Origin: Acidobacteriota bacterium
GTDB taxonomy: Bacteria > Acidobacteriota > Blastocatellia > UBA7656
Length of the DNA stretch: 64,000 nt
Assembly (NCBI GenBank): GCA_038040445.1
Contig: JBBPIG010000005.1
Span: 1 to 64,000 of the forward strand
Direction: 5' to 3'
Below the pieces are notes generated by a model that was not told where the DNA came from, made no database searches, and saw nothing but the letters and a program-made list of their open reading frames with translations. Positions 10,185 to 15,740 of this stretch are shown piece by piece. Made by a program: the position numbers and the translations under genes. Within the stretch, counting starts at the first letter, position 1. Each line of letters starts with the position of its first letter.

Positions 10185-11762
10185 TCAGTTCTTCCCCTTC
10201 CTTCCATAAAGCTCAGTCAGTTCGCCCAGCCTATTGCCGAGCTTCCTGGTCAGGGCGCCGGCTCTGTATCGCCACTGCCAGTTGCCCTGCTCGCTCGCGG
10301 GGAGGTTCATCCGAGCGCGCGAACCGAGCCCGAGTACATCTTGCAGTGGAGTCACCGCGGTATTTGCTACTGACGCCCACGCCGTTCGAATGAGGTCCCA
10401 GTGAATCTCGTGCCCGTCGGTGTTCAGATATCGGAGGCAGTACGCGCGCTCGCGTTGGATCTCATCAGCGGTGCGCGTCGAACCCGCTCCGGCTCTACTC
10501 TTGAACCATCCAACGGTCGTGTCGTTGTCGTGCGTGCCCGTGTACACGACGCAGTTTCGAATGTAGTTGTGCGGCAGATCGATTGTCTTACTATCAGCTC
10601 TGAACGCGAATTGCAGAACACGCATGCCAGGAAAGCCGAAGTCGTCACGCAACGCTTCGACGTCAGGAGTAATCACGCCCAGATCCTCGGCGATGATCGG
10701 TAGCTCGCCAAACGTATTTCTCAAGGTTGTGAAAAGTTTCCGTCCGGGAACTTCAACCCAACGACCGCGCTCGGCAGTCTTGTCTTCGCCGGGCACTTCC
10801 CAGCAGGCGGCGAATCCGCGGAAGTGATCGATGCGGAGTATGTCTACCGTCTGAAGCGTCGCGCGCAGCCGGTCTACCCACCAGCGAAAGCCTGTCGCGC
10901 ACATCGCGTCCCAATCGTAAATCGGATTGCCCCAGAGCTGCCCGGTCCGGCTGAAGTAATCGGGCGGAACTCCGGCGACGACTGTCGGGCGCCTTTCCTT
11001 GTCCAGCTTGAACAGCTCCGGATGGGTCCACACGTCAGCCGAATCGCAAGCCACGAATATCGGAGCATCGCCGATGATGCTTACACCGCGCTCGTGGCAA
11101 TAGGCCTTGAGTGAAAGCCATTGCCTGAAGAAAAGAAATTGATTGAACTTCTCAGCGTCGACTCTGTCTCTGAGCGTCTCACGCGCTGAAGCCAGCGCGG
11201 CGGCGTCGCGCGCGGCGAACTGCGGCGCCCACTCAGTCCAGGCGACCCCGCCGTGCGCGTCCTTCAACGCGCGAAACAGCGCATAGTCTTCGAGCCACCA
11301 GTGAGCCTCGCGGCAAAACTCCAAGAACTCGGCTCGCAGGCCGGTGTCGGTAACGCGCTTGAAGTTATCAAACGCGTTTTCAAGAAGCGCCTTCTTGTAC
11401 TCGATGACTCGGCCGAAGTCTACACGTCGGGAGCTAAACCGCGGTGCAACGTTGAGGTCTTCCTCCGACAGCAGTCCGGCTTGAGCCAGCCGCTGAGGAC
11501 TGATCAGTAGCGTATTCCCGGCGAATGCGGAAAAGCACTGATAAGGCGAGTCGCCGTAGCCGGTAGGCCCGAGCGGCAAGATTTGCCACAAGCTCTGTCC
11601 GCTCGCCGCGAGAAAGTCGACAAAAGCGTACGCTTCGCCGCCGAGGTCGCCTATGCCAAAGCGCCCTGGCAATGATGTCGGATGCAAAAGGATGCCGCTC
11701 GCTCTTGGAAAGCTCACTGAGGCTCCGATCTGGTAGACATACTGTGGGCGGATAGATACCAC
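10185..11762 (-). CDS. malQ: 4-alpha-glucanotransferase
   Basis: A 525-residue GH77 amylomaltase that transfers glucan segments between maltodextrins and takes part in glycogen or maltose use in the cytoplasm. The N-terminus RASGILLHPTSLPGRFGIGDLG and LPLGPTGYGDSPYQCFSAFAGN are diagnostic. Catalytic residues are visible: the nucleophile Asp in ILRIDHFRGF, the acid/base Glu in IIAEDLGVITPDV and the transition-state Asp in YTGTHDNDTTVGWF. Length is that of the Thermus-type enzyme without an N-terminal extension. No other glycogen genes are near, and it appears to be a single-gene unit. Confidence 0.95.
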   Translation of the reverse strand: MVSIRPQYVYQIGASVSFPRASGILLHPTSLPGRFGIGDLGGEAYAFVDFLAASGQSLWQILPLGPTGYGDSPYQCFSAFAGNTLLISPQRLAQAGLLSEEDLNVAPRFSSRRVDFGRVIEYKKALLENAFDNFKRVTDTGLRAEFLEFCREAHWWLEDYALFRALKDAHGGVAWTEWAPQFAARDAAALASARETLRDRVDAEKFNQFLFFRQWLSLKAYCHERGVSIIGDAPIFVACDSADVWTHPELFKLDKERRPTVVAGVPPDYFSRTGQLWGNPIYDWDAMCATGFRWWVDRLRATLQTVDILRIDHFRGFAACWEVPGEDKTAERGRWVEVPGRKLFTTLRNTFGELPIIAEDLGVITPDVEALRDDFGFPGMRVLQFAFRADSKTIDLPHNYIRNCVVYTGTHDNDTTVGWFKSRAGAGSTRTADEIQRERAYCLRYLNTDGHEIHWDLIRTAWASVANTAVTPLQDVLGLGSRARMNLPASEQGNWQWRYRAGALTRKLGNRLGELTELYGRKGKN

Positions 11763-11867
11763 ATCCGCAGCTCTTCCTCAATGCGCTCTACTTTAATGCG
11801 TTCTCTTTGGCGCCGGGAAGCGATGCGTTGACAATCGCTCACTATACGAACTAGATTCTACCCAACG

Positions 11868-12461
11868 ATGAAAGCGCTTTTCAGCACTGTCCTCTTGATC
11901 GTCTCGGGCATCGCAGCCTACGGACAATCACCCCAATCACCGCTCACGCCGCCCAAGCTTCCTGCGCCCGGGCCGGCCGGAGCGTCGGTCAAACTGAAGC
12001 TGGGAGAAAAGGCTCCGGACTTTGCGCTGCCCAACGGCGATGGCAAGCTGGTTGTTTTGTCTGAATACACTCAGCGGTCGCCTGTGGTGTTGATCTTCTA
12101 CCGGGGCTTCTGGTGAGGCGCGTGCACACAGCAGCTCACCAGGTTGGCTGAGGATTATGACAAGATCAAACAGGCGGGCGGGGACTTGATTGCCGTCAGC
12201 GTGGACGCGCAGTCATTCGCCTGGTCGATGGCGCAGACCACCGGTGCGAAGTTCCAGATACTCTCCGACGCCGACAAGAAGACCATCATCTCATACGGCA
12301 TCCTCAACGCCGCCGAGCACGACGGGATAGCTCACCCTGCGATATTCATTCTGGATAAGGAAGGAAAGATCCGCTACTTCCACGTGGGCAAGGACGCTCA
12401 AGACAGACCGCCTGATGAAACGATACTTCAGGAAGTAAAAAAGCTGACGACACGAAATTAG
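11868..12461 (+). CDS. Exported peroxiredoxin-like protein, candidate selenoprotein (in-frame TGA = Sec83)
   Basis: Read through one in-frame TGA (12114-12116), this is a 197-residue AhpC/TSA-Redoxin-fold protein. The signal peptide is MKALFSTVLLIVSGIAAYGQ. The family entry motif LGEKAPDFALPNGDGK is at about residue 45, then VVLIFYRGFW-[TGA]-GACTQQL. Relatives have YRGxWC-x-x-C at this site, so the TGA stands where the first redox Cys is expected and the second Cys is kept, giving UxxC. After it the fold continues intact: LIAVSVDAQSFAW, KFQILSDADKK, HPAIFILDKEGKIRYFHVG. A hairpin at 12135-12152 fits a bacterial SECIS. The likely role is peroxide or thiol reduction outside the cytoplasm. The alternative is a nonsense mutation or sequencing error, but loss at exactly that codon with everything else intact favours selenocysteine. 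Confidence 0.75.
12135..12152 (+). promoter_or_regulatory. SECIS-like hairpin in the peroxiredoxin gene
   Basis: CTCA-CC (12135-12140) pairs with GG-TGAG (12146-12152, with one bulged C at 12148), closing a 5-nt loop AGGTT. The loop begins 24 nt after the TGA, and its second base is G. Known bacterial SECIS elements have a loop 16-37 nt after the UGA with a G in the first two loop positions, so this fits. It overlaps coding sequence, as bacterial SECIS elements do. Confidence 0.55.
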
Positions 12462-12593
12462 TGTCTCGTCAATGATGTAGTCGGTCGTTAGCAGCGGCTC
12501 AACGTTTTGATTCAGCCATTGCGAAGCTGAGGCATGGTCGATATCTGACGGCACAACGCTCGCGAACCACGCACCCGTATCTACGAAGATCAT
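12462..12593 (-). pseudogene. PIN-domain (VapC-like) toxin, C-terminally truncated
   Basis: The first 44 or so codons are a clear PIN-domain start: MIFVDTGAWFA with the first catalytic Asp, then HASASQWLNQN and TTDYIIDETL. Beyond that, at 12462, the frame enters the antisense of the convergent peroxiredoxin gene and family similarity ends, although an open frame continues to 12291. The later acidic residues of the RNase site are therefore missing and the toxin should be inactive. Its ATG overlaps the stop of the upstream antitoxin-like gene (ATGA at 12590-12593), the usual toxin-antitoxin coupling. The truncation probably happened when the region was joined to the peroxiredoxin gene. Confidence 0.7.
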
Positions 12594-12829
12594 GGTGTAG
12601 TCTTCTCACCGTATAGGATCTTATCGTGGTCCCTTCCCGAGAACGGTTGGCCATCCCCCTCAACGGGCAGAGAGGCGATCGCTGACAGTATTTCGGCGGG
12701 CGTATTATTCTCGCCGGAAGGCTCAGCTGTCCTGATCGTAACTTCGACGATCGTCCCATCCGCGAGCGCTACTGGTTCCTTCAACCGCAGGACGCCTCGC
12801 TCATATACTGCCTCGATAGTTGTTGTCAT
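12590..12829 (-). CDS. AF2212-like (DUF104) antitoxin
   Basis: A 79-residue protein starting at MTTTIEAVYERGVLRLKEPV. This N-terminus (I-x-A-V-Y-E-x-G-V-L-x-P-L/K-E-P-V) is the DUF104/AF2212-type antitoxin domain that pairs with PIN toxins. The later part is acidic and disordered (EGDGQPFSGRDHDKILYGEKTTP), as expected for a toxin-wrapping tail. The ATG at 12829 is preferred to an upstream in-frame ATG on domain grounds. Its stop overlaps the ATG of the truncated PIN gene. With the toxin broken, it may be an orphan kept by chance or by use elsewhere. Confidence 0.8.
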   Translation of the reverse strand: MTTTIEAVYERGVLRLKEPVALADGTIVEVTIRTAEPSGENNTPAEILSAIASLPVEGDGQPFSGRDHDKILYGEKTTP

Positions 12830-12854
12830 AGGCCATCCTCTCACGAGCATCTAA

Positions 12855-15740
12855 TCACCGGAAGGTCTTTTGATTCTGCGCAATCAACTGCCTCAACACA
12901 TAAGGCAGTATCCCGCCGTGCAGGTAGTAATCAACTTCAATCGGGGTGTCGATGCGAAGCGTCACCGGGACGCGCTCGGTTTCGCACCTCAAGCGGTGAA
13001 TCACCAGCGTCAAATCCTGGCGAGGGCTGACTCCACCTTCAAACCCGGTGAGGTCGAAAGTCTCGCTGCCGTCCAGATGAAGTGACTGCGTGTTTGTGCC
13101 TTCCGCGAACTGGCACGGCAGCACGCCCATGCCTACAAGATTCGAGCGATGTATCCGCTCAAAGCTCTGCGCCACAACCGCGCGAACGCCAAGCAGTCGA
13201 GTTCCCTTCGCTGCCCAATCGCGCGAGCTGCCCGTACCGTACTCCTGTCCCGCGAAGATCATCAGCGGCACGCCTTCAGCCTGGTATTTCATCGACGCAT
13301 CGTAGATGCTCATTCGCTCGCCGCCGGGTTGATGAATAGTCACGCCGCCTTCGACGCCGGGGACCATCAAGTTCTTGATCCGAACGTTAGCAAAAGTCCC
13401 GCGAGTCATCACTCGATCGTTCCCGCGGCGCGCACCGTAGCTGTTGAAGTCCGCCACCGACACGCCCATCGCTTGAAGATAGAGCCCGGCCGGCGACGTC
13501 GGTTTGATGGCGCCGGCAGGTGAGATGTGATCGGTCGTCACCGAATCGCCGAATATCGCCAGCGCCCGCGCGCCCTTGATCGCGGAGACGCCTTCGGGCT
13601 CCATCGAGAAGCCTTCGAAATAAGGCGGCTCCTGAATGTAAGTTGATTCGGGGTCCCATTCATAGACATCGCCGGCGATCGAGGGAATCTCATTCCACAG
13701 CGGGTTCGCTTCTACAAAGTTGCTGTAGCGGCGGCGGTAAGTCTCGGGGTCAAATGCTGTCTGCAGATGCTCTCGCACTTCTTCGGCGCTCGGCCAGATG
13801 TCCCGTAGATAAACCTCGCGGCCATCTGTTCCCTTCCCTATCGACTCTTCCGCGAGGTTGATATTAACGCGGCCCGCAAGCGCGAATGCGACGACCAGAG
13901 GCGGGCTCATCAGGAAATTTGCCTTGACGCTTTGATGCACGCGCGCTTCAAAGTTTCGATTGCCGCTCAGCACGCTTGCGCCGACCAGGTCCTTCTGGCT
14001 GATCACTTCTTCAATGCCGGGATCGAGCGGTCCCGAGTTGCCGATGCACGTCGTGCAACCGTACCCGACGAGGTTGAAGCCTAGTTCATTCAGATAAGGC
14101 TGAAGCCCGGCTTTTTCGAGATAGTCGGTGACCACGCGCGAGCCCGGCGCGAGCGAAGTTTTTACAGCCGGGCGAACCATCAGGCCCTTGTCGACCGCTT
14201 TCTTCGCCAACAGCCCCGCGGCAAGCATCACGCTCGGGTTCGAGGTATTGGTGCACGAAGTGATCGCCGCGATCAACACATCGCCGTGGCCGAGATCTAT
14301 CCTGCTGTGGAAGCCGGCGGCTTTGGTCTCTTCAACACGGTCCGGAGTCGGCCGGTTGTTCATCATCTCGGTCTCGCTGGCGACGCTAGTGTTCGTCGCG
14401 CTGGTTGCGCCGTGCGCGGTGACCGGGGCCGTCTCAGGTTCCTGCTCTCCGCCACCCGCGAGCGGTCCGTTGTGCCGCGCACCGATGATTGCCGGGAAGC
14501 GTTGGCCAATTTCGTCTTTCGATTTGTTGTAGCCGTTCTCGCCGAATGGCTTCTGAAGGATCTCGACGAACTTGCCCTTGAGGTCCGACAGCGCGATGCG
14601 ATCCTGCGGGCGCTTCGGTCCGGAGACGCTGGGTTCGACTGATGAAAGATCGAGCTCGAGCACTGTGCTGTAATGGCATTCGCCTTTGCCCGGAACGCCA
14701 AACATCCCCTGCGCGGTGAAGTAGCTTCGGATCAACTGCACTTGCTCGTCCGAGCGTCCGGTTGCTTTGTAGTAAGCGCAGGTCTGCTCATCGATCGGGA
14801 AGAAGCCCATCGTTGCGCCGTATTCAGGAGACATGTTGGCGATGGTCGCGCGATCGGTGACCGACAAGCTGGCCGCGCCTTCACCATGGTATTCGACGAA
14901 CTTGCCGACGACCCGCGCCTTGCGAAGCATCTCGGTCACGGTCAACACCAGGTCGGTCGCGGTCACACCGTCGCGCAAACTGCCGGTCAGGTGCACACCG
15001 ACAACGTCGGGGGTGAGGAAATAGACCGGTTGCCCGAGCATTCCCGCTTCGGCTTCGATACCGCCAACACCCCAGCCTACGACGCCCAACCCATTGATCA
15101 TCGTTGTGTGCGAGTCAGTGCCGACCAGCGTGTCAGGATAGAAGACGCCGTCTTTCTCTTGAACTCCTTTGGCCAGGTACTCGAGGTTGACTTGATGACA
15201 GATGCCGATGCCGGGCGGCACGACGTTGAAGCCGTCGAACGCTTGCATCCCCCACTTCAGAAATTGATACCGCGCGCGGTTGCGTTTGAACTCCATTTCC
15301 ATGTTCAAACGCAGAGCATCAGGCACGCTCGAGAAGTCGACCTGAACGGAATGATCGATCACCAGATCGACCGGAACGAGCGGCTCTATGATCTGGGGGC
15401 CCTTGTTCATTCGGGCCGCGGCCGAGCGCATGGCCGCCAGGTCGACTAACAGCGGCACGCCGGTGAAGTCCTGCAGCAGTATGCGCGCAACCGTGAACGG
15501 AATCTCCTCGGTCCGCAGATGGTTTGGTTCCCAGTTCGCGAGCCTGCGTACGTTGTCCTCAGTGACGCGTTTGCCATCGTAGTTGCGTAAGACTGATTCG
15601 AGAACTATGCGAATGCTGATGGGAAGCTTTGAAATAGGGCCGATGCCTTGACGTTCGAGCTCGGGCAAGGAGTAGAAACTGCCGTTCGAGCCGTCTTTGC
15701 TTTCGAAGTTTTGTAATGAGTTGAAGAGATTGTGTGCCAT
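12855..15740 (-). CDS. acnA: Aconitate hydratase A
   Basis: A 961-residue monomeric aconitase of the AcnA/IRP1 type, interconverting citrate and isocitrate in the TCA cycle. The core motifs are [20 protein letters not shown], the cluster cysteines in [14 protein letters not shown] and [24 protein letters not shown] and the swivel-domain loop [36 protein letters not shown] marks the domain 4 entry. The length is above the roughly 900 usual in part because of a low-complexity insert of about 40 residues rich in Ala, Thr, Glu and Asn (residues about 440-480) between domains. ATG 15740 (MAHNLF) is preferred over one five codons upstream. No operon partner is evident. Confidence 0.96.

Follow-up and report, generated by a model that had tools for sequence, protein, structure and literature searches.

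A peroxiredoxin-like gene of Blastocatellia with a conserved in-frame TGA very probably encodes a selenoprotein

The gene at positions 11868 to 12461 very probably encodes a selenoprotein of the peroxiredoxin (Prx)-like UxxC kind. Selenocysteine (Sec) at residue 83, as put forward in the original prediction, is supported by conservation of the TGA codon, by selection on the sequence downstream of it, and by the sel genes of the host. The window, meaning the whole 64,000-nucleotide stretch analyzed, comprises bases 1 to 64000 of contig 5 of a 6.7-Mb genome. The host is a soil-type bacterium, and its nearest named relative among the genomes searched is "Blastocatellia bacterium AA13" (L016), a member of the Acidobacteriota. 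The features discussed below are as follows.

11828..11857, forward strand: promoter TTGACA-N18-TAGATT, with 10 of 12 matches to consensus
11868..12461, forward strand: Prx-like selenoprotein gene, 197 residues with predicted Sec83
11868..11924, forward strand: probable signal peptide, residues 1 to 19, MKALFSTVLLIVSGIAAYG, as read from the sequence
12114..12116, forward strand: TGA predicted to be read as Sec83, from conserved TGA in homologs and host sel genes
12123..12125, forward strand: Cys86 codon, UxxC partner of Sec83, at the peroxidatic Cys position of Bcp/PrxQ in alignments
12135..12152, forward strand: predicted apical stem-loop of a bacterial SECIS, loop AGGUU (or GGU), from folding and orthologs
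12336..12338, forward strand: Pro157 codon, at the site of the peroxiredoxin catalytic Arg in phmmer alignments

Translation confirmed that the frame contains a lone internal TGA, located between YRGFW and GACTQQL, and that the remainder is open. The read-through sequence is MKALFSTVLLIVSGIAAYGQS...VLIFYRGFW-U-GACTQQL...LIAVSVDAQSF...HPAIFILDKEGK, in which both downstream motifs named in the original prediction (LIAVSVDAQSF and HPAIFILDKEGK) are present. The joined protein scores 108.3 bits against the Pfam AhpC-TSA model (PF00578; cutoff, 26) and 90 bits against Redoxin, and a single AhpC/TSA match spans the TGA (residues 46 to 170). The protein is probably exported, judging from its N terminus (MKALFSTVLLIVSGIAAYGQS) as read and from similarly hydrophobic N termini in relatives (L075 to L084 and L089). 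A search of a plasmid collection retrieved distant relatives only (<60% identity). On the reverse strand, an open reading frame at 12291 to 12593 has a start resembling that of a PIN domain toxin and no match in Pfam; its 3' part overlaps the last part of the selenoprotein gene in antisense orientation, and it adjoins an AF2212-like antitoxin gene (12590 to 12850, reverse strand). This open reading frame is possibly a truncated toxin gene.

Among 98 related genomes, TGA was found in every gene matching at an E value of ≤1e-30 (10 genomes, own genome included). A class-wide search of 162 genomes gave 31 matches in 29 genomes at an E value of ≤1e-22, and 30 of these loci were inspected for the Sec/Cys codon. 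TGA occupies the same codon, in the context YRGxW-U-xx-C, at 21 of the inspected loci, while three (L090, L130, and L137) carry TGC (Cys) at this position. The other six are TxxU relatives, in which the TGA falls exactly three codons later. The occurrence of UxxC and TxxU genes in one class thus suggests that related proteins place Sec at either of two active-site positions. At the Sec site, Cys homologs read W-C-P-[YF]-C, in agreement with the W-C-x-x-C relatives anticipated earlier, and Cys86 is invariant in the alignment of homologs. In a tree of Sec and Cys forms, the Sec forms cluster, with poor support for the deep forks. One Sec/Cys pair, L128 (TGA) and L137 (Cys), belongs to a single genus (g11), and its two peptide sequences are nearly identical.

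The original prediction held that the TGA replaces the first Cys of the motif. This is correct relative to the CxxC of the Cys homologs but not relative to solved peroxiredoxins. In phmmer alignments to 2ywn and 2cx3, Sec83 corresponds to the Thr/Ser of TxxC and Cys86 to the peroxidatic Cys, while Arg79 takes the place of Pro and Pro157 the place of Arg. The Thr, Cys, Pro, and Arg at these aligned positions have catalytic roles in peroxiredoxins. Instead of the classical PxxxTxxC-plus-Arg site, the protein has R79, U83, C86, and P157, the last of which is not conserved in the UPYC subgroup (L079, L083, and L084). An AlphaFold2 model (mean pLDDT of 87 overall) shows a peroxiredoxin fold, with residues 41 to 197 confidently modeled. 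The structure closest to the model is Bcp4 (3hjp; Z score of 25.5 and root mean square deviation of 1.5 over 155 residues), followed by AhpE and 2-Cys Prx.

The product may be a selenoprotein and yet a true peroxidase, in which peroxides are reduced by either Cys86 or Sec83 and the oxidized intermediate is resolved by its partner; we consider this a serious possibility, though the less probable one. The fold, the proximity to Bcp/PrxQ and AhpE structures, and the peroxidatic position of Cys86 all speak for a peroxidase. However, the Pro, Thr, and Arg of the classical site are all replaced (by Arg79, Sec83, and Pro157), and the genome already contains a TxxU peroxiredoxin (L096; C16:106295-106678; TGA at TSV-U) and several TxxC peroxiredoxins. 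A thiol-disulfide role is modestly favored over a peroxidase role.

Because Sec83 and Cys86 are the sole Sec/Cys residues of the protein, a Sec83-Cys86 selenenylsulfide would be the natural redox couple. In the proposed pathway, SelB acting on the hairpin directly behind the UGA would deliver Sec-tRNA-Sec, and the ribosome would insert Sec at residue 83. The Acidobacteriota hairpin may depend on a cognate SelB. Once the protein is exported, its Sec83 selenolate would attack an oxidized substrate, either a disulfide or a peroxide, and Cys86 would resolve the product as an intramolecular selenenylsulfide, completing a putative Se-S cycle in which an extracytoplasmic thiol donor re-reduces the Sec83-Cys86 couple. 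A more speculative proposal, which we regard as rather unlikely, is that the protein is an exported hybrid with a thioredoxin-type Sec nucleophile three residues upstream of a retained peroxidatic Cys. In the periplasm of soil Acidobacteriota, such a protein would provide an Se-S site that acts on peroxides as well as disulfides.

A search of the host genome for sel genes, suggested in the original prediction as a check, retrieved selA (576 bits), selB (359 bits), selD (L085; 352 bits), and a tRNA-Sec with anticodon UCA (70.6 bits), all above curated cutoffs. The tRNA-Sec ends in G73-CCA as read in the sequence, and the host selD has an in-frame TGA of its own (context, CAG-U-AAK). In all 18 related genomes tested, selA likewise scored above its cutoff. 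Of the 25 AhpC/TSA matches in the host genome, 3 contain an in-frame TGA: the gene described here, L096, and a ResA-like protein with WASW-U-GC (L105; C1:44039-44377).

Reading of UGA 12114 as cysteine by a tRNA-Sec-like tRNA-Cys is very unlikely. The host does have a tRNA-Sec-like gene whose anticodon is GCA (Cys) and which is conserved in relatives, and selC* tRNA-Cys from elsewhere sometimes carry UCA (PMC7609411). Nonetheless, the host GCA anticodon would read UGC/UGU and not UGA, the one tRNA detected with UCA is an ordinary tRNA-Sec, and the host retains intact selA and selB genes along with an intact selD of the Sec type.

The tRNA-Sec-like gene itself is located at G000:C5:159193-159283 on the reverse strand (L009/L116), and the host genome has an ordinary tRNA-Sec and an ordinary tRNA-Cys in addition to it. 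Together with its relatives (L117, L118, and L119), it scores 53.6 to 65.4 bits against the Rfam tRNA-Sec model; these genes share the GCA anticodon, a 6-bp D-stem, and a long variable arm. The gene is conserved across four genomes, with compensatory changes. It resembles selC* tRNA-Cys, for which PMC7609411 contains no Acidobacteria entry. A dense array of >20 tRNA genes, one of them a second tRNA-Cys(GCA), is present at G000:C17:20960-26623 (reverse strand), with single tRNA genes scattered elsewhere.

Purifying selection on the codons behind the TGA is strong, with dN/dS values over 110 codons of 0.168 versus L075, 0.168 versus L076, and 0.147 versus L077. An ordinary stop at the UGA, whereby the two halves constitute separate products or the UGA acts as a regulatory switch, is highly improbable. 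A UGA near an active site can lower the amount of full-length product under low selenium. However, a product ending at residue 82 would be missing the latter half of the thioredoxin fold, and the Cys homologs are full length. Although one stop in one genome would look alike, there is next to no chance that the sequence represents a pseudogene or that the TGA arose from an error in sequencing or assembly, as relatives in independent genomes of several families keep the TGA at the same codon with purifying selection behind it, in contradiction to the random decay that the original prediction had named as its refutation.

The predicted SECIS stem-loop reads CUCACC-AGGUU-GGCUGAG, with one bulged C; the ViennaRNA fold favors one additional A-U pair, which gives a GGU loop. 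A hairpin is present at the identical place in eight orthologs of family f1, with loops of GGU, GUU, or GUC closed by CCA/UGG. A second clade has a CAGCU...AGCUG stem about four nucleotides earlier, and a third has GCUCGGC-AGUUA-GCCGAGC nine nucleotides earlier. Compared with synonymous-codon shuffles, the hairpin in each of 12 genes was 1.6 to 2.3 standard deviations stronger; the summed z score of -6.6 overstates the case, as the 12 genes are related and not independent. A hairpin behind the UGA with a small G-containing loop, at a fixed position in orthologs and stronger than in codon shuffles, is consistent with a bacterial SECIS.

As originally predicted, the hairpin is present with its loop 24 nucleotides past the TGA. 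By itself, however, the window hairpin is weak evidence, as in ordinary genes of the window, 37% of codons precede a hairpin that passes the same loose rule at equal or lower energy, and an Rfam scan of 11400 to 13000 returned no match and no SECIS family. A covariation count over seven orthologs found zero compensatory changes in the stem, because the paired columns are nearly invariant and the position of the bulge shifts; this count therefore weighs neither for nor against the hairpin. Among the Cys forms, L137 has lost the hairpin, which is present in its congeneric TGA gene (L128); L130 has a different, unaligned hairpin; and L090, as read, has a largely preserved stem but an altered loop.

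The ATG lies only 10 nucleotides past the second promoter hexamer, and the selenoprotein mRNA is thus probably leaderless. The same TTGACAATC...TAGATT, at equal distance from the ATG, occurs in orthologs L075 to L078. With the spacer allowed to be N17 or N18, TTGACA and TAGATT followed by an ATG about 10 nucleotides on are shared by five genes, namely this one and its closest orthologs. In L079, L083, and L084, which are more distant, the ATG is preceded by purine-rich sequence.

"Prx-like" selenoproteins in which UXXC stands in place of TXXU have been known as a family of thiol:disulfide oxidoreductases since 2005 (PMC1088965), and the family is listed as "Prx-like 1" in PMC2398784. It also appears in reviews from 2022 (PMC9312934) and 2026 (PMC13188914), the latter of which has a "Redoxin family protein UxxC." The present gene shares with this family the PF00578 domain, a thioredoxin-like UxxC in place of TxxU, an in-frame UGA where existing Cys homologs have the first Cys of CxxC, a hairpin behind the UGA, and a host with selA, selB, selC, and selD. 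It differs in its probable signal peptide, and the match is to published sequence criteria rather than to a subfamily such as Prx-like 1 or the "Redoxin family protein UxxC." PrxU/TxxU proteins likewise have a Prx fold with Sec in the active site, as does the TxxU homolog in the same genome, but here Sec sits at the place of Thr, three codons upstream, and the PrxU model (NF040737) scores 51 bits against a cutoff of 270. The best NCBIfam match, SelL-related redox protein (NF040769), is also below its cutoff (64.8 versus 120 bits). Given the agreement with the sequence criteria and the scores below the SelL and PrxU cutoffs, we assign the protein to the known Prx-like UxxC family. Bcp/PrxQ and AhpE proteins (3hjp, 2ywn, 2cx3, and 1xxu) share the fold (Z scores of 22 to 25.5) and the position of Cys86; here, three residues of the peroxidase site (Arg, Thr, and Pro) are replaced and Sec is added.

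What is new here is modest: a record of the family throughout Blastocatellia, pairs of natural Sec and Cys forms, and a conserved promoter with a probably leaderless transcript. Our literature search found little on Acidobacteriota selenoproteins; a 2006 study (PMC1794560) gives four selenoproteins in three families for the phylum. Because gene finders that stop at TGA split or drop the gene, annotation of the exported redox enzymes in Blastocatellia is probably incomplete. The L128/L137 pair, together with the TxxU homologs, offers a clean natural system for the benefit of Sec and for SECIS decay after a change from Sec to Cys.
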